Source of the DNA: Bacteroidaceae bacterium | GTDB lineage: Bacteria; Bacteroidota; Bacteroidia; Bacteroidales; Bacteroidaceae | Assembly (NCBI GenBank): GCA_017651245.1 | Contig: JAGCDQ010000066.1 | Location: 1 to 51,754, forward strand | Reading direction: 5' to 3' | Length of the DNA: 51,754 bases | Part shown: positions 2,970 to 43,809 of the stretch, piece after piece | How the letters are laid out: every line of letters begins with the position of its first letter | How positions within the stretch are numbered: the first letter of the stretch is position 1 | Notes under the pieces: generated by a model | What the model saw: the letters and a program-made list of their open reading frames with translations, nothing else | Databases searched by the model: none | Told to the model about the DNA's origin: nothing | Position numbers and translations under genes: made by a program

Positions 2970-3347
2970 ATGGCAGATTTGAAAGCTATTGCTGAAGAAT
3001 TGGTAAATTTGACAGTGAAAGAAGTAAGTGAATTAAAGACTATCCTTAAGGATGAATATGGTATTGAACCTGCTGCTGCAGCTGTTGCTGTTGCTGCTGG
3101 TCCTGCAGCTGGTGGTGAGGCTGCTGCTGAAGAGAAGACTTCATTCGACGTTGTTCTCAAGAGCGCAGGTGCTGCTAAGCTCCAGGTAGTAAAGGCTGCT
3201 AAGGAAGCTCTTGGTCTCGGTCTTAAGGAGGCAAAGGATCTTGTTGACGGTGCTCCTTGCAATGTGAAGGAAGGCGTTGATAAGGCTACAGCTGAGGCAG
3301 TTAAGGCAGCTCTCGAGGCAGCTGGTGCTGAGGTTGAGATTAAGTAA
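2970..3347 (+). CDS. rplL: 50S ribosomal protein L7/L12
   Basis: L7/L12 is the multi-copy stalk protein that recruits translational GTPases. The product has 125 residues: an N-terminal dimerisation domain (residues 1-30), an Ala/Gly-rich hinge (about 32-52) and the globular C-terminal domain with [12 protein letters not shown]. An intrinsic-terminator-like hairpin follows it, separating it from rpoB. Confidence 0.97.
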
Positions 3348-33920: not shown

Positions 33921-35519
33921 ATGAACACAAAATATATCTTCGTCACAGGCGGTGTGGTTTCCTCATTGGGCAAAGGTATCATCTCCGCCAGTATCGGCAA
34001 ACTGTTGCAGGCACGTGGCTACAAGGTCACCATCCAGAAGTTTGACCCCTACATCAACATCGACCCAGGCACCCTCAACCCTTACGAACACGGAGAGTGC
34101 TATGTCACCGTCGATGGAATGGAAACCGACCTTGATCTTGGACACTATGAGCGCTTCACAGGTATCCACACCACCCGCAACAACTCCATCACCACAGGTC
34201 GCATCTACAAGACCGTCATCGACAGAGAGCGTCACGGTGACTATCTTGGCAAGACCATTCAGGTGGTGCCTCACATCACGGATGAGATCAAGCGCAGAAT
34301 GTTGAGAGAGGATGAGAAGGGTGAGAACCTTGATTTCGTCATCACCGAAGTGGGAGGAACCATTGGTGACATCGAGAGTGCTCCCTTCATGGAAGCCATC
34401 CGACAGTTACGCTGGCAACTGGGTCGTGATGCGGTTTGCGTCCACCTCACTTATGTGCCTTATCTGAAAGCTGCCGAAGAACTGAAAACCAAGCCCACTC
34501 AGCACTCTGTGAAGGAATTTCAGGGAATGGGTATTCAGCCTGATATCCTCGTGTTGCGCACCGAACGCCACCTCGACGATGCTGTGCGCATGAAGGTGGC
34601 TTCCTTCTGTAATGTGGATCTTGAGTGTGTGGTGCAGAGCGAAGATATGCCCAGCATCTACCAAGTGCCCGTCAGCATGCAGCGTCAGGGGCTTGATGCT
34701 GCCATCATGAGAAAGATAGGAATCCCTGTTGGTGAAACTCCTTCCATGAAGTCTTGGCACGATTTCCTCGATAAGCAGAGTAATGCCACTCGTGAAGTCC
34801 ATATCGGTTTGGTGGGCAAGTACGACTTGCAGGATGCCTATAAATCAATTCGTGAGAGCCTGAACCTTGCGGGAATCTACAACGACGTGAAGGTGAAGCT
34901 CCACTTCATCAACAGCGAGGACATCACGCCTGAGAATGTGGCGAAGAAATTGGAAGGAATGGCGGGTGCCGTCATCTGTCCAGGGTTCGGACATCGAGGC
35001 ATTGAAGGAAAAATCACGGCTATTCAATATACCCGTACCCACGATATCCCTACCTTTGGTATTTGTCTGGGTATGCAGATGATGGTGATTGAGTTTGCTC
35101 GTCATGTATTAGGTCTTGTTGATGCACATAGTACGGAGATGAATCCTGACACTCAGCATCCAGTGATTGACCTGATGGAAGAACAGAAGAACATCACGGG
35201 TATGGGCGGAACGATGCGTCTGGGCGCATACGACTGTGCTTTGCAGGAAGGAAGCAAAGCTCGTAGCATCTACGGCAAGGCTCTTATTCAGGAGCGTCAC
35301 CGTCATCGCTACGAGTTCAATAACACCTACCTCGATGATTTTGAGAAAAACGGTATGCAATGTGTGGGACGAAATCCAGAGGGAAATCTGGTGGAAGTGG
35401 TGGAACAGCCCGATAAGAAATGGTTCATCGGCACTCAGTTCCATCCTGAATATGCCTCCACCGTCCTACATCCTCATCCTCTCTTCATGGACTTCATCAA
35501 GGCGAGCATTACAATGTGA
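33921..35519 (+). CDS. pyrG: CTP synthase (glutamine hydrolysing)
   Basis: PyrG aminates UTP to CTP with ATP and glutamine. The 532-residue protein has the synthetase domain with [11 protein letters not shown] and [14 protein letters not shown], then a class I glutaminase domain with the nucleophile Cys in [10 protein letters not shown] and the His/Glu of FHPEY. It follows the PurF gene by 2 nt, so the two glutamine-using nucleotide enzymes share a transcript. Its last 11 nt overlap the 3' end of dapF on the other strand. Confidence 0.97.
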
Positions 35520-36366
35520 TTTCGCCTTCAAAAGAAATAGCGGCAGGACCGGTCATCAGAATATGATGGTCGGTCTTGTTCCATTCTATATGGAGCGTGC
35601 CACCATCCATCTGGATGTTGCTGTGACGACTGGAACGTCCCGTCAGGTGGGCAGCAACCGCTGTGGCACAGGCACCCGTTCCACAAGCGAGGGTGATGCC
35701 TGAACCACGTTCCCACACTCTCATACGGAGTGCACCGTTGGGAGAAGGAATGCTGACAAACTCAATGTTGCAACGTTGAGGGAAAATGGGGTGGTGCTCC
35801 AAGAGGGGACCATAATGCTCCAAAGGGAACTGCTCCACGTCCTCGTCCAAGAAAATGACGAAATGGGGATTGCCCATCGAGACAAAAGTGCCGTAGAAGG
35901 TACGGTCATCGACGGTGAGGGCATAATCTTGTGCTTGTCCGTCTTGATCGCCAAACTGCTGAGGCTCACGAAGGACGGGCTCACCCATATCAACGGTAAC
36001 GGTCTCCACCTTGTTGTCCCCGTTCAGATGCAATTGCAACACCTTGATGCCCGAAAGCGTCTCAAGACGAATGGGGTTCTTGTTGGTCATTCCCTTGTCG
36101 TGAAGATACTTCGCCACGCATCGGGTGCCGTTTCCGCACATCATGGCTTCGGAACCATCGTTGTTGAAGATACGCATGGAGAAGTCAGCATCAGGAAGGG
36201 TGGGGGCGCCAATCAGAATCAAACCATCACTGCCAATTCCGAAATGGGGCTTGCTCCAGGCAATGGATGCAGCAGCAGGGTCGGGGATATTATATAATAA
36301 TGTGTTGACATAGATGTAGTCGTTGCCCGCACCATGCATTTTTGTGAACTTTATGACTCGTTTCAT
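35509..36366 (-). CDS. dapF: Diaminopimelate epimerase
   Basis: DapF interconverts LL- and meso-diaminopimelate. The 285-residue protein starts [19 protein letters not shown] and carries both catalytic cysteines, in [13 protein letters not shown] and in [16 protein letters not shown] start at ATG 36366; twelve more upstream codons are open but do not match the family. It runs against pyrG and the two coding ends overlap by 11 nt, with no terminator visible between them. Confidence 0.95.
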
Positions 36367-36399
36367 GCTTTTTGTTAGTTGTTTTATTAAATTGATGTA

Positions 36400-36407
36400 C
36401 AAAGGTA
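36400..36407 (-). promoter_or_regulatory. -7 element of the dapF promoter
   Basis: The complement reads TACCTTTG, 34 nt before the dapF start. A CAAA (TTTG on the minus strand) at 36431-36434 gives a 23-bp spacer, longer than usual. Confidence 0.6.
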
Positions 36408-36504
36408 AGCATAATTACTAAAAATTGTATCAAAAAGACACTGATAATTGCTATATTCTTGACATAAGTCAATATGTAAGCAAAAATATAAAAAAAACTT
36501 ACAC

Positions 36505-36540
36505 TTTGCTTTATCAAATACTAAAAATGCTATAACTTTG
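36505..36540 (+). promoter_or_regulatory. Promoter of the glnK-amt leader
   Basis: TAACTTTG at 36533-36540 is a good -7 box. TTTG at 36505-36508 gives a 24-bp spacer, longer than the optimum, so an activator may help. The transcript would start near 36547, about 14 nt before the leader ORF and 300 nt before glnK. Confidence 0.6.
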
Positions 36541-36560
36541 CATCGAAATCAAAAATAAAC

Positions 36561-36677
36561 ATGTTCATTATGACACTTAACAGTAATTCAATCACAATGA
36601 ATCTGAATAATAATGATTATCAGTTTCAGCAGCAGGGCCAGGAGCAGAATCAGGACTCTACATTGCTTGTGGTGTGA
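36561..36677 (+). CDS. Gln/Asn-rich leader peptide upstream of glnK-amt (candidate)
   Basis: A 38-codon ORF with ATG 14 nt after the predicted transcript start and a TGA stop at 36675. Residues 21-31 read QFQQQGQEQNQ: seven of eleven are Gln, all encoded by CAG, and seven Asn occur in the peptide as a whole (MNLNNND). No signal peptide or domain is visible. A strong terminator begins 70 nt after its stop. The layout (promoter, short ORF rich in one amino acid, terminator, structural genes for metabolism of that amino acid) is that of a leader peptide for transcription attenuation, as in his or trp operons. In-frame ATGs at 36570 and 36597 are alternative starts. Homology is untested; it could instead be a small protein. 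Confidence 0.6.
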   Translation: MFIMTLNSNSITMNLNNNDYQFQQQGQEQNQDSTLLVV

Positions 36678-36747
36678 ATCTACCAGTCGGATGAACACTT
36701 TGAAATCGAGCACAAATACAAAAACATACAACACAAACACACACAAT

Positions 36748-36788
36748 GAGGCTGGTTCATAAATAAATGAATCAGCCTCTCCATTTTT
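36748..36788 (+). terminator. Terminator hairpin in the glnK leader
   Basis: A 13-bp stem (36748-36760 with 36767-36779, one G-T wobble) with loop AAATAA is followed by TCCATTTTT. An alternative 5-bp hairpin TCTCC/GGAGA (36778-36793) would break its base. ATGAAC at 36691 can pair with the 5' arm (GTTCAT, 36755-36760). The hairpin lies between the leader ORF and glnK on the same strand, so some read-through is needed for glnK expression from the upstream promoter. Confidence 0.85.
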
Positions 36789-36846
36789 GGAGAACAGCAT
36801 TCAAAACAAAATAATTATCAACACAAACTTCAAAACACATTAAGGT

Positions 36847-37194
36847 ATGAAAAAGATTGAAGCAATCATCCGTAAGACAAAGTTCGAGGATGTAAAAGAC
36901 GCATTGTTGCACTCAGACATCGATTGGTTTGAGTATCACAACGTGCATGGCATCGGTCAAAGTCGAGAGGAACGCATCTACCGTGGTGTACAGTACTCTA
37001 CTGACGTGATTGAGCGTGTGGCACTGACCATCGTGTGTCGCGACCAATTCGTGGATCCAACGGTGAAGGTCATCCTGAGAGTGGCACACACTGGCGAAAT
37101 TGGTGACGGTCGCATCTTCGTGAGCGACATGATAGACACCTGGAGCATCCGAACGGGTGAGAATGGTGACACCGTATTGAGAGATAAGAAATAG
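36847..37194 (+). CDS. glnK: P-II family nitrogen regulator
   Basis: P-II proteins sense ATP/ADP and 2-oxoglutarate and block AmtB channels by inserting the T-loop. The 115-residue protein begins MKKIEAIIRKTKFEDVKDAL, has a T-loop region with GQSREERIYRGVQY (one residue shorter than GlnK of E. coli before the YRG motif, with the Tyr equivalent to Tyr51 kept) and the nucleotide-binding TGEIGDGRIFV and IRTGENG. Direct linkage to amt justifies glnK rather than glnB. A CA-rich tract and no Shine-Dalgarno precede the ATG. Confidence 0.95.
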   Translation: MKKIEAIIRKTKFEDVKDALLHSDIDWFEYHNVHGIGQSREERIYRGVQYSTDVIERVALTIVCRDQFVDPTVKVILRVAHTGEIGDGRIFVSDMIDTWSIRTGENGDTVLRDKK

Positions 37195-37252
37195 TTAAGG
37201 GAAAACAGATTAACTATTAAGGGTAACAACACAATTTAAACACAACACAACT

Positions 37253-38509
37253 ATGAACGAAGTAGGAATTTCACTCGATACCGTATGGATGCTATTGGCA
37301 GCCATGTTAGTTTTCTGGATGCAACCAGGATTTGCCTTGTGTGAGGCTGGTTTCACGCGTAGTAAAAACTGTGCGAACATCTTGATGAAGAACTTTGTCG
37401 ATTTCATGTTCGGCTCCCTGTTGTTCTTCTTCATCGGTTTTGGCATCATGTTCGGAAGCGACATTTTGGGTGGCTTCATCGGATTGCCCAACTGGGGTGA
37501 CCTCTCTTTCTATGAGGGCGACCTGCCAGTGGAAGGCTTCCTGATTTTCGAAACAGTATTCTGTGCCACTTCTGCCACCATCGTCAGTGGTGCGATGGCT
37601 GAGCGCACGAAGTTCTCTATGTACTTGGTATATAGCGCATTCATTTCTCTCATTATTTATCCAATCGAAGGTCACTGGACTTGGGGCGGCGGATGGCTTT
37701 GCAACGATGCTGCTGACTCTTTCATGATGACAACCTTCGGTGATGTGTTCCACGACTTTGCTGGTTCTGCCATCGTGCACTCTGTAGGTGGTGTGCTCGC
37801 ATTCATCGGTGCCATCGCATTGGGTCCCCGTCTTGGCAAGTACAGCAAGGAAGGCAAGAGCCACGCTATTCCTGGTCACAACCTGACGTTGGCTTCTCTT
37901 GGCGTATTCATCCTTTGGCTCGGATGGTTCGGTTTCAACCCTGGTAGTCAGCTGGCTGCTGCTGGTGAGGTGAACCGCATTGCGATCTCTCACGTGTTCC
38001 TGACCACTAACCTTGCTGCTGTAGCTGGTGGTGTGGCAACGATGTTCGTCACTTGGATGAGATATGGCAAACCTTCTCTCTCACTCACCCTCAACGGTAT
38101 CTTGGCAGGTCTTGTAGGTATCACAGCTGGTTGCGACCTCGTTTCTCCTGTTGGTGCTGTCATCATCGGTCTCGTTTGTGGTGTCGTGCTCGTGTTCGCT
38201 ATTGAATTCATCGATCACAAACTGCACATCGACGATCCTGTGGGTGCTTCTTCAGTACACGGTGTTTGTGGTATCCTCGGTACCCTGATGACTGGTTTGC
38301 TCTCTACCAGCAACGGTGCCTTCTACGGAGGCGGTTGGGGTTTCTTCGGTGCTGAGTGCTTCGGCATCCTCGTCATCGACCTCTGGGCAGCCGCTTGCGG
38401 TCTCATCCTCTTCTTTGGCATCAAGAAACTGCACGGTCTTCGTGTGGATGCCCGCATCGAGGAAGAAGGTCTCGACATCTACGAGCACGGAGAAAGCTGC
38501 TACAACTAA
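37253..38509 (+). CDS. amt: Ammonium transporter
   Basis: Inner-membrane channel for ammonium. The 418-residue protein has eleven predicted membrane helices and the two pore histidines, His176 (SAIVHSVGG) and His336 (GASSVHGVCG). The N terminus lacks the long cleaved signal peptide of E. coli AmtB, as is usual in Bacteroidota. It follows glnK by 58 nt. P-II binding through its cytoplasmic face is expected from the family. Confidence 0.96.
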   Translation: MNEVGISLDTVWMLLAAMLVFWMQPGFALCEAGFTRSKNCANILMKNFVDFMFGSLLFFFIGFGIMFGSDILGGFIGLPNWGDLSFYEGDLPVEGFLIFETVFCATSATIVSGAMAERTKFSMYLVYSAFISLIIYPIEGHWTWGGGWLCNDAADSFMMTTFGDVFHDFAGSAIVHSVGGVLAFIGAIALGPRLGKYSKEGKSHAIPGHNLTLASLGVFILWLGWFGFNPGSQLAAAGEVNRIAISHVFLTTNLAAVAGGVATMFVTWMRYGKPSLSLTLNGILAGLVGITAGCDLVSPVGAVIIGLVCGVVLVFAIEFIDHKLHIDDPVGASSVHGVCGILGTLMTGLLSTSNGAFYGGGWGFFGAECFGILVIDLWAAACGLILFFGIKKLHGLRVDARIEEEGLDIYEHGESCYN

Positions 38510-38563
38510 ATTGTCCATTTCTATTATAATTAACCCATTTAATCAACCTCAAAAAGTACAAGT

Positions 38564-39289
38564 ATGAAAAAGGTAGAAGATTTGTTTAAGGGATTTGCTC
38601 TCACGGCATTGTTGCTCTCCGGAGCAACAGCCGCTGAGGCTCAAGACACAGTAGAAACAACCGTCGAAGCCGATGTGGTGAACCAATATATCTGGCGCGG
38701 TCTGGAATTAGGTAACACCGCCTTCCAACCCACATTGGGCATCGCCTACAAAGGGTTGTCGCTCACAGCTTGGGGAAGTGTAGGATTGACTGACCCAACC
38801 GACACGAAAGAGTTTGACCTCACCTTGGGTTACACCATCGGAGGATTCAACATTGGTATCTGCGATTACTGGTTCAACGCAGGTCTTGATCCAGAAAGCC
38901 GTTACTTCATGTACGAAGCTCACCGCACCAACCACGTGTTTGAGGCAAACGTTGGCTACGACTTCGGAGTGGCAAGCATCCAATGGTACACCAACTTTGC
39001 TGGCAACGATGGTTTCAACAAGAAAGGCAAGCGAGCATATAGCTCCTACTTCGAAATTAGCGCTCCGTTCAAACTCGCCACTTGCGACTGGACAGCCACA
39101 GCCGGTGCGGTTCCTTACTACACGGACTTTTACGGAACAACTGGTTTCGCGGTGACCAACCTCGCACTTCGTGCAACGAAAGACATCAAGATCACTGACT
39201 CGTTCAGTATCCCAATCTTCGGAGAGGTGGTCGGCAATCCTTGCAGTCAGAAAGCATATCTGGTTTTTGGATTAACTTTGCGTCCTTAA
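38564..39289 (+). CDS. Putative outer-membrane porin of the glnK-amt operon
   Basis: The 241-residue product has a signal peptide (cut near AAEAQ, residue 26) and alternating aromatic beta strands ending in AYLVFGLTLRP, with a C-terminal barrel strand. The VNQYIWRGLELGNTAFQPTLG opening resembles small porins of the TorF/Gcw_chp group. It sits 54 nt after amt and before a terminator, so it belongs to the ammonium operon and may let ammonium or small nitrogen compounds cross the outer membrane. The substrate is inferred from position only. Confidence 0.82.
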   Translation: MKKVEDLFKGFALTALLLSGATAAEAQDTVETTVEADVVNQYIWRGLELGNTAFQPTLGIAYKGLSLTAWGSVGLTDPTDTKEFDLTLGYTIGGFNIGICDYWFNAGLDPESRYFMYEAHRTNHVFEANVGYDFGVASIQWYTNFAGNDGFNKKGKRAYSSYFEISAPFKLATCDWTATAGAVPYYTDFYGTTGFAVTNLALRATKDIKITDSFSIPIFGEVVGNPCSQKAYLVFGLTLRP

Positions 39290-39302
39290 TCCGAACCTGA
39301 CG

Positions 39303-39341
39303 AAGGGGCTGTGTCTCAACAGGCACAGCCCCTTTCTTTTT
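39303..39341 (+). terminator. Terminator of the glnK-amt-porin operon
   Basis: 11-bp stem AAGGGGCTGTG with CACAGCCCCTT, 10-nt loop, then TTCTTTTTG. Confidence 0.88.
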
Positions 39342-39388
39342 GTCTTCATTCCTTCTCTTTTTATCCAAACTGCACTTTGATTTATCAT

Positions 39389-39419
39389 AAATGGAACAGA
39401 ATTTGGTCACGTTCCATTT
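39389..39419 (+). promoter_or_regulatory. Inverted repeat over the -33 box, candidate operator
   Basis: AAATGGAAC and GTTCCATTT form a perfect 9-bp inverted repeat with a 13-bp centre that contains the -33 TTTG (39402-39405). Binding here would block or recruit RNA polymerase. The AraC-type regulator encoded just downstream is the obvious candidate ligand; this is inference. Confidence 0.6.
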
Positions 39420-39433
39420 TTTCTGTTACTTTG
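39402..39433 (+). promoter_or_regulatory. Promoter of the ThiD/AraC-pdxST operon
   Basis: TTTG at 39402-39405, 20-bp spacer, TTACTTTG at 39426-39433 (one mismatch to TAnnTTTG). Confidence 0.65.
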
Positions 39434-39443
39434 CAGCCGAAAT

Positions 39444-39475
39444 AAAGGTTAAAGATTATAGGTTAAAGGTTAAAG
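39444..39475 (+). repeat. Heptanucleotide tract abutting a start codon
   Basis: AAAGGTT, AAAGATT, ATAGGTT, AAAGGTT, AAAG run directly into the ATG of the next gene, so the tract occupies the ribosome-binding zone. Confidence 0.75.
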
Positions 39476-40369
39476 ATGGCCGCAACAATACTGACAATAA
39501 CGGGTAGTGATGGCACTGGGGGCTCTGGCGTCCAGGCCGACATTCGTTTTATCAGCGAATTGGGAGGCGTGGCAGCATCGGCAGTCACTTCCATCACAGT
39601 GCAAAACACGCTGGGTATTCAGGAGTTTCACGATCTGCCTGCCTCAGTGGTGCGTCAGCAAGTGGAGGCTATCGTCAACGACTTGCAGCCACAGGTGGTG
39701 AAGATTGGTTTGGTACGCCGTATTGATGTGGTGGAGACGCTGGTGGATGTGCTGAAGAAATATCAGCCGCGCCACATTGTATATGCGCCTGTGCTGAAAT
39801 CGACAAAAGGGGAGCAGCTGGTATCGGAAAAGGTTTATGATGCCATCAAACGTCTGTTGATACCAATCTGCACTGTTGTTTTGGAACCGTCCGATTTACC
39901 TGTTGGTTCTCGCAAACACGGTTCTGCCAACCAATTGGCTTCTGCTGTGGCATTCTACCTGAGTCGTGGGGAAGAAGTGGATGAGGCGATGCTTCATGCA
40001 CGAACTTACCTGAAACAATTGCCAGCCGATTATGCTGATGGCAACAGTCGGAGCGAAGAACTCTACAATCAGTTCCTCAATGCAGTGGAACATTTTTTCA
40101 ACCGATATGCCGATGTGGCTTTCTATGCAGAACAGTTAAATGTCAGCCCTCGTTATCTGGGGCAGGTGACCCGACGCATTGCGGAGCGTTCTCCGAAATC
40201 CATCATCGATGAACGTATCACGACGGAGATTGCGCTGTTGCTCACCAAGACCAACAAGCCGTTGAAGGAGATTGCTCAGCAACTCGGCTTCTCTTCGCAG
40301 GCACACCTTTCCCGATATTTCAAGAAACAGAAAGGTGTTTCTCCTAGCCAATACAAACAATCAATATAA
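39476..40369 (+). CDS. ThiD/PdxK-like kinase domain fused to AraC-type DNA-binding domain
   Basis: The 297-residue protein has a hydroxymethylpyrimidine/pyridoxal kinase-like domain (residues 1-185: TITGSDGTGGSGVQADI and LVRRIDVVETLVDVL) and an AraC HTH domain (213-297: YAEQLNVSPRYL, then KEIAQQLGFSSQAHLSRYFKK, split at residue 283). The kinase part is shorter than ThiD (~266 residues): a central stretch is missing and the GTGC anion-hole motif near the end is replaced by HGSANQ (148-153). It is therefore likely a ligand sensor rather than a kinase. Its operon partners pdxS and pdxT make pyridoxal phosphate, so it is probably their transcription regulator sensing a B6 vitamer or HMP. Confidence 0.85.
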   Translation: MAATILTITGSDGTGGSGVQADIRFISELGGVAASAVTSITVQNTLGIQEFHDLPASVVRQQVEAIVNDLQPQVVKIGLVRRIDVVETLVDVLKKYQPRHIVYAPVLKSTKGEQLVSEKVYDAIKRLLIPICTVVLEPSDLPVGSRKHGSANQLASAVAFYLSRGEEVDEAMLHARTYLKQLPADYADGNSRSEELYNQFLNAVEHFFNRYADVAFYAEQLNVSPRYLGQVTRRIAERSPKSIIDERITTEIALLLTKTNKPLKEIAQQLGFSSQAHLSRYFKKQKGVSPSQYKQSI

Positions 40370-40381
40370 AACATTAAGAAA

Positions 40382-41257
40382 ATGAAAGAAGACAGACAAG
40401 CGTTAAACCGTCAGTTAGCTCAGATGCTGAAAGGCGGCGTGATTATGGATGTGACCACTCCTGAACAGGCTCGTATTGCCGAGGAGGCTGGTGCTTGTGC
40501 CGTGATGGCATTGGAAAGAATCCCTGCCGACATCCGTGCAGCAGGTGGTGTTTCGAGAATGAGCGACCCGAAGATGATTCGTGGCATTCAGGAAGCGGTG
40601 AGCATTCCAGTGATGGCAAAGTGCCGTATCGGACACATTGCTGAGGCACAGATTCTGCAGGCTATAGAGATTGACTATATCGATGAGAGCGAGGTGCTGA
40701 GCCCTGCTGACAATATCTACCACATTGACAAGACGAAGTTCGACGTGCCTTTCGTGTGTGGTGCGAAGAACTTAGGCGAAGCCCTGCGACGCATTGCTGA
40801 GGGTGCCACGATGATTCGCACCAAAGGTGAACCTGGCACGGGCGATGTAGTGCAGGCAGTGAGCCACATGCGACTGATGCAGAGTGAAATCCGTCGTTTG
40901 GTCAGCATGAGTGAGGACGAACTCTTCGAGGCAGCCAAGCAGTTGCAGGCTCCTTACGAACTGGTAAAGTTTGTGCATGAGAACGGAAAACTGCCTGTGG
41001 TGAATTTCGCTGCTGGTGGTGTTGCCACTCCAGCCGATGCTGCCCTGATGATGCAACTCGGAGCCGAAGGTGTGTTTGTGGGTAGTGGTATCTTTAAGAG
41101 CGGCAATCCTCAGAAACGTGCGGCTGCCATTGTGCAGGCAGTCACCAACTATCAGGATGCAAAGCTGTTGGCAGAACTCTCCGAAGATCTTGGCGAGGCA
41201 ATGGTGGGCATCAACGAGCAGGAGATTGAATTGCTGATGGCAGAAAGAGGAAAGTAA
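40382..41257 (+). CDS. pdxS: Pyridoxal 5'-phosphate synthase, PdxS subunit
   Basis: PdxS condenses ribose 5-phosphate, glyceraldehyde 3-phosphate and ammonia to PLP. The 291-residue TIM barrel has the family segments [24 protein letters not shown] and the phosphate-binding GEPGTGDVV, and ends with [21 protein letters not shown] in part ([14 protein letters not shown]). It starts 12 nt after the regulator gene and works with PdxT, encoded next. Confidence 0.97.
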
Positions 41258-41290
41258 GGTTCAAGAAGTTCAAGAGTTTAAGAGTTCAAA
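41258..41290 (+). repeat. Octanucleotide-like tract between pdxS and pdxT
   Basis: AGTTCAAG, AGTTTAAG, AGTTCAA fill the 35-nt junction before the pdxT ATG. Confidence 0.6.
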
Positions 41291-41292
41291 GT

Positions 41293-41874
41293 ATGAGAAT
41301 TGCAGTTCTCGCCCTGCAAGGGGCATTCATTGAGCACGAACAGATGTTGCAGGAACTGGGAGTGGAGACCTTCGAGGTGCGACAGTTGTCAGATTGGCAA
41401 CAACCTAAGGATGGTCTTGTTATTCCTGGTGGCGAATCGACCACGCAGACAAAGCTGCTGCATGATTTGGGATTGTATGAACCTGTACGTCAGGCAATTT
41501 TGGATGGACTTCCTGTGTTCGGCACTTGTGCAGGATTGATTCTGTTGGCAAAGCAGGAGGATGGACATCCACGCGAAGGATTGGGTACGATGGACATTGA
41601 TGTGTGTCGTAACGCTTATGGTCGCCAGTTGGGCAGTTTCCATGCGGTGGCACCTGTGGCAGGCATTGGTGAAGAAGTGCCCATGACGTTTATCCGTGCT
41701 CCTTATATTAATAAGGTGTTGTCGCCCAGCAGTCAGGTGCTGTCTGTGGTGGACGGACACATCGTGGCGGTTCGGCAAGATCATCAACTGGCTACAGCCT
41801 TCCATCCGGAACTGACCTCCGATTACCATTTGCATCAGTATTTCATCGAACAAATCTGTCAAACTCCATCGTGA
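41293..41874 (+). CDS. pdxT: Pyridoxal 5'-phosphate synthase, glutaminase subunit PdxT
   Basis: PdxT hydrolyses glutamine and feeds ammonia to PdxS. The 193-residue class I amidotransferase has VIPGGESTT, the nucleophile Cys in FGTCAGLILLA and the His/Glu pair in FHPELT. Length matches the family. It closes the operon; a terminator follows 27 nt later. Confidence 0.97.
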   Translation: MRIAVLALQGAFIEHEQMLQELGVETFEVRQLSDWQQPKDGLVIPGGESTTQTKLLHDLGLYEPVRQAILDGLPVFGTCAGLILLAKQEDGHPREGLGTMDIDVCRNAYGRQLGSFHAVAPVAGIGEEVPMTFIRAPYINKVLSPSSQVLSVVDGHIVAVRQDHQLATAFHPELTSDYHLHQYFIEQICQTPS

Positions 41875-41901
41875 TGGATTAAGATTGGAAAGATATACAT
41901 C

Positions 41902-41947
41902 AAAAGGCAAGAATGACGCACGAAATTGCGGATTTCTTGCCTTTTTT
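41902..41947 (+). terminator. Intrinsic terminator after pdxT
   Basis: AAAAGGCAAGAA pairs with TTCTTGCCTTTT around an inner CGCA/TGCG hairpin, followed by TTTTTTC. The A-run on the 5' side may let it act in both directions. Confidence 0.88.
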
Positions 41948-42009
41948 CTTGCAAAATCGATAAAAAATGAATAAAATGACAATGATTTTTAAAATTTCTT
42001 GTCAAAATG

Positions 42010-42041
42010 TTTGCGTATTAAATGTAAAGTATGTAATTTTG
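42010..42041 (+). promoter_or_regulatory. Promoter of asnB
   Basis: TTTG at 42010-42013, 20-bp spacer, TAATTTTG at 42034-42041, a full consensus match. The leader (about 60 nt) carries the CA-rich tract at 42077-42088. Confidence 0.8.
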
Positions 42042-42105
42042 CAACCAAAATAAGAAAAGTTAAAACAAATTGACATAAACAACACAAGCATAACAGCAAA
42101 AAGAT

Positions 42106-43809
42106 ATGTGCGGATTTGTAGGAATACTCAAAACGAAAGGTGATGCTCGACAGAAACGTGAGCAGGCATTGAAGATGTCGGCAAAGATTCGGCATCGTGG
42201 ACCTGATTGGAGTGGGGTGTATAGCAACGACAAGGCGGTGCTGGCGCATGAGCGTCTGGCTATTGTTGACCCGCTGTCGGGTGGTCAACCCTTGTATTCG
42301 TCTGACGGCAAGATTGTGCTGGCTGTGAATGGTGAAATCTACAACCATCAGGAGATTCGTCGTCGTTATGCAGGACAGTATGAGTTCCAGACGGGTTCTG
42401 ACTGCGAGGTGATTCTGGCACTCTATCAGGATAAGGGTGTTGATTTCCTCGACGAGCTGAACGGCATCTTCTCTTTTGTGCTCTACGACACAGAAACTGA
42501 TGACTATCTGGTGGCACGCGATCCAATCGGTGTGATACCTTTATATATAGGTCACGATAAGGACGGAACGATCTATGTGGCAAGTGAGTTGAAGGCCCTC
42601 GAAGGTCAGTGTGATGAATACAAGCCTTTCCCTCCAGGTCATTTCTGCACTAGCAAGCATGGTGGGCAGTTGGAACGTTGGTATGAGCGTGACTGGATGC
42701 AGTATGACGGCATGAAGTGGTCAACTTCCGACCATGATGAGGCGGTTCAGATGGTGAAAGACGGGTTGATGGCATCGGTGAAGCGTCAGTTGATGAGTGA
42801 TGTACCTTATGGCGTGCTGTTATCAGGCGGTTTGGACAGTTCTGTGGTGTCTGCCATCGCCAAGCTGTATGCAGCCAAGCGTATTGAGACCAACGATCAG
42901 CACGATGCTTGGTGGCCTCGTCTTCACTCGTTTGCTGTGGGTTTGAAGGGAGCGCCCGATTTGGAGAAAGCACGTGAGGTGGCTGATTTTATCGGCACTG
43001 TGCACCATGAAGTGAACTACACGATTCAGGAGGGCTTGGATGCCATCCGTGATGTGATCTATCATATTGAGACTTACGATGTGACGACGGTTCGTGCTTC
43101 TACGCCAATGTATCTGTTGGCGAGAGTCATCCGCAGTATGGGTATCAAGATGGTGCTCTCTGGCGAAGGTGCTGACGAGATATTCGGAGGCTACCTCTAC
43201 TTCCACAAGGCACCTGATGCACGGGCATTCCACGAGGAAACGGTTCGCAAACTGAGCAAGTTGCACTTCTACGATTGTCTGCGTGCCAACAAGTCGCTGA
43301 TGGCGTGGGGTATTGAAGGTCGTGTGCCTTTCCTCGACAAAGAGTTCCTGGATGTGGCGATGCGTATCGACCCAGCTCTGAAGATGTGTGGTCCTCTTCC
43401 AAATTCTCCCAAAGGAGCCTTCGAGATTGAGAAGAAGGTGGTGCGTGAAGGATTTAGCGAGATGCTTCCAGCCAATGTGGCTTGGCGACAGAAAGAGCAG
43501 TTCAGTGATGGTGTGGGCTATTCATGGATTGACACCCTCAAGAAGGTGACTTCCGAGGCTGTATCTGACGAACAGATGGCACATGCAGCAGAACGATTCC
43601 CCATCAATCCGCCACTCAACAAGGAGGAGTACTACTATCGCAGCATCTTTGAGGAGCACTTCCCAAGTGCCTCTGCAGCGAAGAGCGTGAACCAAGAGGC
43701 TTCAGTGGCTTGCTCCACAGCGATTGCCCTCGAATGGGACGAAGCCTTCAAAAACATGAACGACCCCAGCGGACGTGCCGTCAAGGGTGTGCACGAACAG
43801 GCATATTAA
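42106..43809 (+). CDS. asnB: Asparagine synthetase B (glutamine hydrolysing)
   Basis: AsnB makes asparagine from aspartate, ATP and glutamine. The 567-residue protein has the N-terminal glutaminase nucleophile Cys2 (MCGFVGIL) and the synthetase domain with the ATP PP-loop LLSGGLDSSVVSAIA and SGEGADEIFGGY. Length matches E. coli AsnB (554). It has its own promoter and is followed on the same strand by glnA. Confidence 0.96.
   Translation: MCGFVGILKTKGDARQKREQALKMSAKIRHRGPDWSGVYSNDKAVLAHERLAIVDPLSGGQPLYSSDGKIVLAVNGEIYNHQEIRRRYAGQYEFQTGSDCEVILALYQDKGVDFLDELNGIFSFVLYDTETDDYLVARDPIGVIPLYIGHDKDGTIYVASELKALEGQCDEYKPFPPGHFCTSKHGGQLERWYERDWMQYDGMKWSTSDHDEAVQMVKDGLMASVKRQLMSDVPYGVLLSGGLDSSVVSAIAKLYAAKRIETNDQHDAWWPRLHSFAVGLKGAPDLEKAREVADFIGTVHHEVNYTIQEGLDAIRDVIYHIETYDVTTVRASTPMYLLARVIRSMGIKMVLSGEGADEIFGGYLYFHKAPDARAFHEETVRKLSKLHFYDCLRANKSLMAWGIEGRVPFLDKEFLDVAMRIDPALKMCGPLPNSPKGAFEIEKKVVREGFSEMLPANVAWRQKEQFSDGVGYSWIDTLKKVTSEAVSDEQMAHAAERFPINPPLNKEEYYYRSIFEEHFPSASAAKSVNQEASVACSTAIALEWDEAFKNMNDPSGRAVKGVHEQAY

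Follow-up and report, generated by a model that had tools for sequence, protein, structure and literature searches.

The window analyzed here, a stretch of 51,754 nucleotides from a Bacteroidaceae bacterium, carries gltB, gltD, an LL-diaminopimelate aminotransferase gene, a PurF-like amidotransferase gene, pyrG and dapF (the last on the reverse strand), followed by a short leader and then by glnK, amt, a porin-like gene, a kinase-AraC fusion gene, pdxS, asnB and the gene for a type III glutamine synthetase. No second leader was seen in the window, including the regions upstream of gltB (24940) and asnB (42106). The product of the porin-like gene is 41 to 55% identical to that of the gene located between the leader and glnK at four other loci (L021, L024, L100 and L084). 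We note also that the kinase-AraC fusion gene (39476-40366) joins a Phosphomethylpyrimidine kinase domain to an AraC-type DNA-binding domain, and adjoins the SOR/SNZ (pdxS) gene. The features of the leader and of the genes behind it are, in window coordinates:

36505..36540, + strand: promoter-like sequence, TTTG and TAACTTTG, read in the sequence
36561-36677, + strand: leader ORF, 38-codon version, MFIMTLNSNSITMNLNNNDYQFQQQGQEQNQDSTLLVV, read in the sequence
36570..36677, + strand: leader ORF, 35-codon version, MTLNSNSITMNLNNNDYQFQQQGQEQNQDSTLLVV; its ATG does not vary among the 14 rows of alignment A1
36606..36653, + strand: Asn/Gln codon cluster, proposed stalling site; gaps in threes, excess of synonymous changes
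36664..36668, + strand: 5' strand (UGCUU) of outer helix P1, partner 36708-36712, from comparative alignments
36672..36698, + strand: conserved hairpin (GUGU/ACAC, GA/GA internal loop, AUCU/GGAU, 7-nt loop ACCAGUC), from comparative alignments
36683..36688, + strand: loop bases CCAGUC, 5' strand of the predicted pseudoknot stem S2 (candidate antiterminator), from loop-arm pairing
36708..36712, + strand: 3' strand (GAGCA) of P1, from comparative alignments
36748..36788, + strand: intrinsic terminator, 13-bp hairpin (36748-36779) and T-run (36784-36788), from the sequence and relatives
36847..37194, + strand: glnK, P-II nitrogen regulatory protein (PF00543, E 5.3e-20)
37253..38509, + strand: amt, ammonium transporter (PF00909, E 5.2e-122; TIGR00836, above cut-off)
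38564..39289, + strand: third gene, porin-like outer-membrane protein (name inferred); matched no family

An earlier sequence-only reading of this region had described a promoter, a 38-codon ORF with seven CAG codons within eleven positions and seven Asn codons, a 13-bp terminator, glnK and amt, and all of these elements are found where it had placed them. The promoter-like elements, TTTG at 36505-36508 and TAACTTTG at 36533-36540, resemble the Bacteroidota-type promoter consensus and would place the transcription start near 36547; a TTTGCA-like block also lies upstream of the ORF in most rows of A1. The glutamines of MFIMTLNSNSITMNLNNNDYQFQQQGQEQNQDSTLLVV occupy positions 21, 23, 24, 25, 27, 29 and 31, and Asn and Gln together make up 40% of the window leader in frame, compared to 6% and 9% in the other two frames. 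The ORF itself stands, but ATG 36570 (35 codons) is more likely to be its start than 36561, because the close relatives L002 and L003 read ACG at the latter position, and every one of the 14 rows has an ATG aligned at 36570. Similarly, the terminator has the 13 base pairs attributed to it, but its T-run comprises five T only (TCCATTTTT after the hairpin). The stop codon of the ORF (36675-36677) falls in the 5' side of the conserved hairpin, which is contained in the segment GUGUGAAUCUACCAGUCGGAUGAACAC located 3' of the cluster, and the leader RNA as a whole (36547-36846) folds better than 200 of 200 shuffled sequences (z -3.94).

GlnK is present in 197 of the 399 same-family genomes searched, and for 110 distinct glnK loci (L001-L111 minus the duplicate L031) between 523 and 2500 bases of upstream sequence were read, a sample that covers part of the GlnK matches and leaves out most of a more distant clade. 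Of these 110 loci, 30 have an Asn/Gln-rich leader ORF before glnK or before a porin-glnK unit (L021, L024, L100 and L084, where the porin-like gene stands between leader and glnK), in four genera: the genus of the window (15/30), g21 (5/9), g24 (8/8) and g30 (2/6), compared to 0/57 in other genera. This occurrence is not due to chance: when the upstream regions are filtered for ORFs that start with ATG, run to no more than 90 codons and include 15 residues with 8 or more N/Q, 29 of the 110 have one on the sense strand and none of the 110 on the antisense strand. The second ORF passing this filter at L093 is the leader of its pyrG gene, and the 30th leader (L010) lies under the threshold. With a threshold of 7 of 15, applied to both strands of the window and of L112-L179 (731,338 bases), a few non-leader ORFs pass as well (window antisense 3046-3144, L118 and L169, which are one place, L132, L156 and L179). 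The first of these, a Gln-rich ORF on the minus strand antisense to ORF 2970-3347, is probably a by-product of the sense codons.

Beyond these loci, an exact-motif scan of 84,980 species returned 18 places, 17 of which belong to genomes of uncultured Bacteroidaceae, Prevotellaceae or Bacteroidales, many of them under sample names of the rumen type; among the 17, L163 alone is additional to the loci gathered from the family genomes. The 18th, in Verrucomicrobia, lies inside a gene, lacks a leader and was set aside as a chance match. Within the window's own genome, an exact-type pattern with 3 mismatches finds a single place, the window leader itself, and the second match of model R1 there scores 34 bits. 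An order-wide search of 393 genomes with model R2 likewise gave one strong match (the window, 109 bits), and the others were treated as false because they score at most 49.3 bits and the 29 loci taken from them hold no N/Q-rich ORF at 8 of 15. The distribution is patchy: a GlnK tree, itself poorly resolved, implies 8 gains or losses, 3 of which are forced by well-supported branches. One genome, G197, has two glnK loci (L003 and L032), each with its own N/Q leader.

The leaders are held by two different kinds of constraint. Alignment A1, with its 14 rows, has 22 gaps from the start codon to the cluster end, every one of them a multiple of three in length, whereas 10 of the 12 gaps located between cluster and hairpin are not (some rows are closely related and share gaps, such that these counts are not independent events). 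These gap lengths argue that the cluster is kept as code and the hairpin as RNA, and the stop codon, for its part, occurs in all three frames relative to the loop among the 43 leaders compared. Across the same 43 leaders, N+Q amounts to 17-50% in frame, as opposed to 0-12% in the other two frames. The cluster columns contain 36 synonymous and 35 single-base non-synonymous differences, where equal base changes would give an expected ratio of 1:8, together with 38 Asn-Gln changes and 53 multi-base changes to other residues, the sequence pairs behind these counts not being independent. The condition that the sequence-only reading had named as refuting, loss of the ORF or of its Gln codons among relatives that have the leader, was looked for, and the claim withstood it. 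Selection on the whole peptide was considered and rejected, as the 208 synonymous and 888 non-synonymous codon differences over its full length are near neutral, without clear purifying selection.

The RNA constraint concerns the hairpin and the terminator. For 16 glnK-type leaders, 95.6% of cells are paired, compared to 31.7 to 48.5% when the strands are slid, and the covariation score lies above that of 500/500 shuffles, with the number of pairs changed on both sides being matched by 245/500 and the number of pair types by 496/500. For the 31 leaders gathered with model R1 (27 distinct), 93.2% of cells are paired (31.6-45.0% when slid), 14 pairs are changed on both sides, and 0/500 shuffles reach any of the five measures, in an alignment that is fitted to the model and thus favours structure. 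The both-side changes in P1 affect 2/5 columns in the 16 glnK-type rows and 5/5 in the 31 leaders (85% of cells paired in the latter), while row L084 alone accounts for the six in the inner hairpin. The terminator hairpin is paired in 100% of cells in the 16 glnK-type rows and in 98.7% in the 27 distinct rows.

The contiguous inner stem by the loop varies in strength, with p 0.24 for the window type (4 pairs), 0.58 for g30 (3 pairs), 0.086 for pyrG, 0.034 for L084, 0.033 for g24, 0.006 for glmS, and 0.0002 and 0.023 for gltB, whose leaders have standard pairs (GUCCAUC/GAUGGAC) in place of the GA/GA internal loop. Two hairpin pieces from asnB/purF leaders fold no better than shuffles (21/200 and 45/200 as good). 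Other pairings fared less well: the two competing pairings that had been named by eye for the switch, TCTCC/GGAGA and ATGAAC/GTTCAT, are real in the window but are not kept in relatives such as L007, and a long-range helix between ORF start and hairpin flank, seen in the whole-leader fold, is also not kept in L007 by eye. The leader-peptide attenuator as such is well supported by conservation.

Our candidate antiterminator is the pairing of the conserved hairpin loop ACCAGYC (36682-36688) with the 5' arm of the terminator (GGCUGGU, 36750-36756), in which bases 36750-36755 (GGCUGG) would double as the 3' strand of S2. As two stems with no base between them form the layout of an H-type pseudoknot, such a fold is predicted here, on grounds of conserved complementarity and little of covariation. 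The loop-arm helix is 98.2% paired in the glnK-type leaders, and taken alone has 98.9% of cells paired (at most 53.4% when slid), but its covariation is reached by 208/500 shuffles because the loop hardly varies. By eye, the third core position of this helix is A-U in 41, G-U in 9 and G-C in 1 (purF) of 51 leaders; in seven of these (L093 glnK, five asnB and purF) the 3' half of the loop is unpaired, and the helix extends on the other side. Furthermore, the terminator of 4/5 gltB leaders has an A-C mismatch at a position that is U-A in the loop-arm pairing, an argument for selection acting on the latter. In the window, the terminator (-19.9 kcal/mol) is far more stable than the loop-arm pairing (-9.4 kcal/mol), such that the switch would have to be kinetic, the choice being made during transcription; in L098 the two are about equal (-13.0 and -14.0 kcal/mol).

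Comparison of the leaders establishes a coding constraint on the cluster, an RNA constraint on hairpin and terminator, complementarity of loop and arm, and reuse of the leader before other glutamine genes. Taking these together, our preferred reading, to which we assign a probability of roughly three in four, is that the leader is a ribosome-mediated transcription attenuator of glnK-amt that responds to how much charged tRNA-Gln (and tRNA-Asn) is available. We infer from the same comparisons that the leader is translated, that ribosomes stall in it, that transcription terminates behind it, that the pseudoknot forms, and in which direction the system responds. When charged tRNAs are plentiful, the ribosome would pass the Asn/Gln codons and halt at 36675, masking the hairpin and its CCAGUC loop, such that the terminator would form and transcription would end near 36790. 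When charged tRNAs are scarce, the ribosome would wait in the cluster (36606-36653), 5' of the hairpin, allowing P1 and the hairpin to fold; the loop would then pair with the emerging GGCUGG of the terminator arm in an H-type pseudoknot with a long loop of ~57 nt, which would block the terminator and allow glnK-amt to be transcribed.

The spacing of these elements is largely compatible with such a mechanism. A ribosome is described as covering about 12 nt downstream of the decoded codon in one study (PMC4833913). The CC of the loop starts 19 to 34 nt past the last N/Q codon in 42/43 leaders (13 in pyrG; where two CC sites occurred, the hairpin one was used), such that a stalled ribosome would leave the loop free. 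In 38/43 leaders, the distance from the start of the loop CC to the stop codon is between -8 and +17 nt, and, when also taking into account that a ribosome covers nucleotides upstream of the codon it occupies, a terminating ribosome would overlap the hairpin in these 38. The other five, all gltB leaders, do not fit simple ribosome masking, because a ribosome terminating at their stop codon, 35 nt beyond the loop, would leave the loop uncovered. The literature yielded no expression data from species known to have the leader. In a related Prevotella, Prevotella ruminicola 23, passages of one study have glnK and amtB changing 46.2- and 69.1-fold with ammonium supply (PMC5552732); the direction given is contradictory, as one passage has glnK, amtB and gltBD induced under ammonium limitation, whereas the enzyme activities, like further passages, indicate induction when ammonium is non-limiting.

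The leader is not confined to glnK. Among the 399 family genomes, 21 matches to model R1 score above 94 bits, sixteen of them having been used to build the model; 20 of the 21 lie before glnK or porin-glnK, and one (L149) before an ATP-grasp/Alpha-E/transglutaminase operon. The tally of 178 genomes at E 0.01 consists mostly of weak matches and was left uncounted. Of the R1 places, 20 were read (L149 and 19 weaker ones), 11 of which (L149 and ten weaker) have N/Q leaders, five before gltB, four before glmS and two of the ATP-grasp type (L149, and L143, which ends at a contig edge). The other nine (L147, L148 and L155-L161) were rejected as ordinary terminators by their appearance. In addition, L093 has a leader before pyrG, and a 16-base pattern derived from known leaders, AATAATAATCAGGTTC, has 27 matches in 19/399 genomes, partly at the same places, compared to 0 for the reversed control. 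The gene following 25 of these is glnK (11), glmS (5), asnB (5), porin (1), gltB (1), pyrG (1) or purF (1), and the other two matches are a leader at a contig end and one unrelated place. For gltB, glmS, pyrG, asnB and purF, one example each was identified by profile HMM, and the rest by eye from their first residues.

The enzymes encoded by these five genes all use glutamine. The targets of the leader, glnK-amt, gltB, glmS, pyrG, asnB and purF, serve glutamine metabolism, with the L149 operon as the exception. The presence of this device ahead of further glutamine genes among related gut bacteria suggests that bacteria with such leaders probably sense nitrogen through the speed of the ribosome on Asn and Gln codons. 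We would tentatively extend this to the possibility, which we put slightly below even, that in some rumen and gut Bacteroidaceae separate genes, each with its own Asn/Gln leader and ribosome-gated pseudoknot antiterminator, make a dedicated DNA-binding nitrogen regulator unnecessary for much of nitrogen control, tRNA-Gln and tRNA-Asn charging being read out gene by gene. As an observation on the ATP-grasp type, the leaders at L149 (G183:C38) and L143 (G127:C51) contain N, Q and H codons and have the same hairpin, and the ATP-grasp protein encoded behind L149, ahead of Alpha-E and transglutaminase, is circularly permuted.

The same attenuator could also respond mainly to asparagine, or to general amide supply through AsnB, rather than to glutamine. 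Over the 43 leaders, Asn codons (AAT+AAC, 364) outnumber Gln codons (CAG+CAA, 262), gltB leaders have 8 Asn and 1 to 5 Gln, and asnB itself has such a leader in g24. Moreover, the leaders use AAT 292 times and AAC 72 times, as opposed to 274 AAC and 98 AAT in 14 window genes, as if the non-preferred Asn codon had been chosen. However, Gln takes up seven of eleven codons in a stretch of the window leader, the enzymes targeted are consumers of glutamine, and the leaders richest in Gln (10 to 12) are the glnK leaders of the window's genus, and we therefore regard a mainly asparagine signal as unlikely. We note, nevertheless, that the device originally proposed as glutamine-sensing should be called glutamine/asparagine-sensing, since Asn codons belong to the leaders no less than Gln codons and dominate in those of gltB.

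A different possibility is that the codons act as RNA. GAAYCAG, the Asn-Gln codon pair present in many glnK leaders, is complementary to CUGGUUC of the terminator arm, such that translation might only expose or hide these copies and the identity of the amino acid would be irrelevant. The terminator 3' arm, GAAUCAGCC, is indeed similar to the codon repeat, and GAAYCAG or GAGCCAG segments of the cluster score at least as well as the loop in L004, L007, L009, L016 and L029 and tie with it in the gltB leader L146; the loop is among the top three arm-complementary segments in 16/16 leaders, and the best in 8/16, one of them a tie. In L091, L098 and L142, however, the loop is clearly the better partner (8 to 9 pairs with the arm, compared to 5 to 6 for the Asn-Gln codons) and the peptides are still N/Q-rich, which, together with gaps that preserve the reading frame, makes this explanation improbable, although the margin at L093 is only 6 against 5. 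The codons may still act partly as RNA in the window.

We consider it just as improbable that a terminator-controlling protein or small RNA binds at the hairpin loop, with the ORF being secondary. The near invariance of ACCAGYC across genera, which places pairing there beyond covariation testing, and the stricter conservation of the hairpin compared to the ends of the peptide would be expected of such a site. Conservation of the loop is, however, explained by its complement in the arm, one position of the loop-arm helix varies between A-U, G-U and, in a single case, G-C, and a binding factor leaves the in-frame N/Q cluster unexplained. Finally, an independent gene for a small RNA or an N/Q-rich microprotein, upstream of glnK by accident, would account for the leader having its own promoter-like sequence and terminator, but is very improbable, as the leader is still first in the operon where gene order has changed to put the porin first, recurs before gltB, glmS, pyrG, asnB and purF, and encodes a peptide that is not conserved outside the cluster.

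The Asn/Gln attenuator would most closely resemble the classical amino-acid leader-peptide attenuators of trp, his, thr, leu, ilv and phe, which also have a short ORF with a run of diagnostic codons, a terminator before the first gene, targets in the matching pathway and, as predicted for the present leader, a terminator 5' arm with an alternative partner. It differs from these in its Gln and Asn codons, in targets comprising P-II/Amt and glutamine-using enzymes, and in its antiterminator, a predicted hairpin-loop pseudoknot here and a nested 2:3 hairpin in the classical systems. Pseudoknots have reportedly been modelled in classical attenuation in a 2007 Russian conference paper. PreQ1-type riboswitches, in which pseudoknots compete with the terminator, share the H-type pseudoknot as the alternative to termination but are controlled by ligand binding, as opposed to the ribosome position proposed here. 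The cyanobacterial glnA RNA (glutamine riboswitch) binds glutamine directly and needs no leader ORF, and is not matched in Rfam by the present leader. Indeed, eight leader loci (asnB/purF leaders left out) gave no gathering-score match to any Rfam family, Bacteroid-trp, glnA RNA, Downstream-peptide and T-box included, and window positions 35000-42500 gave only two unrelated matches, both under the gathering score. Among the literature matches listed, considered by title and start of abstract with subscription papers outside scope, there is no glutamine or asparagine leader-peptide attenuator. Two papers note leader-peptide-like short ORFs in B. thetaiotaomicron (PMC7366714) and clues to attenuation upstream of amino-acid operons in Flavobacterium (PMC9723704), and the main text of a survey of premature terminators contains neither 'glutamine' nor 'asparagine' (PMC2965389).

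If the attenuator reading is true, Gln/Asn-codon attenuators before central glutamine genes would provide a direct and testable nitrogen sensor; Gln and Asn would join the amino acids read by leader peptides; leaders could spread from gene to gene, building a regulon; and the switch would be a natural example of a ribosome-gated pseudoknot antiterminator. To our knowledge, nitrogen-status sensing in Bacteroidota is poorly worked out, and many of the carrier genomes come from the rumen, where ammonium use matters to livestock nutrition.

Bacteroid-trp RNA (RF01692) is also from Bacteroidota, with Trp codons in place of the Gln/Asn codons of the present leaders. The window's own genome has a candidate Trp leader, MIISFDMIQKFNAYWWWQCLGFKKS (L210, contig C74, bases 71-148 of the reverse complement), with a strong terminator, which heads the trp operon before a trpB-like gene (named by eye); it has no RF01692 match at E 0.5, and would be a natural positive control for attenuation. 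A Leu-rich short ORF with a long hairpin in the same genome, MANYSNTLRLNLLALRLTGSEVRKVRVCCQA (L211, contig C13, bases 191-286), precedes a gene with a LeuA dimer domain and is a candidate leucine leader.
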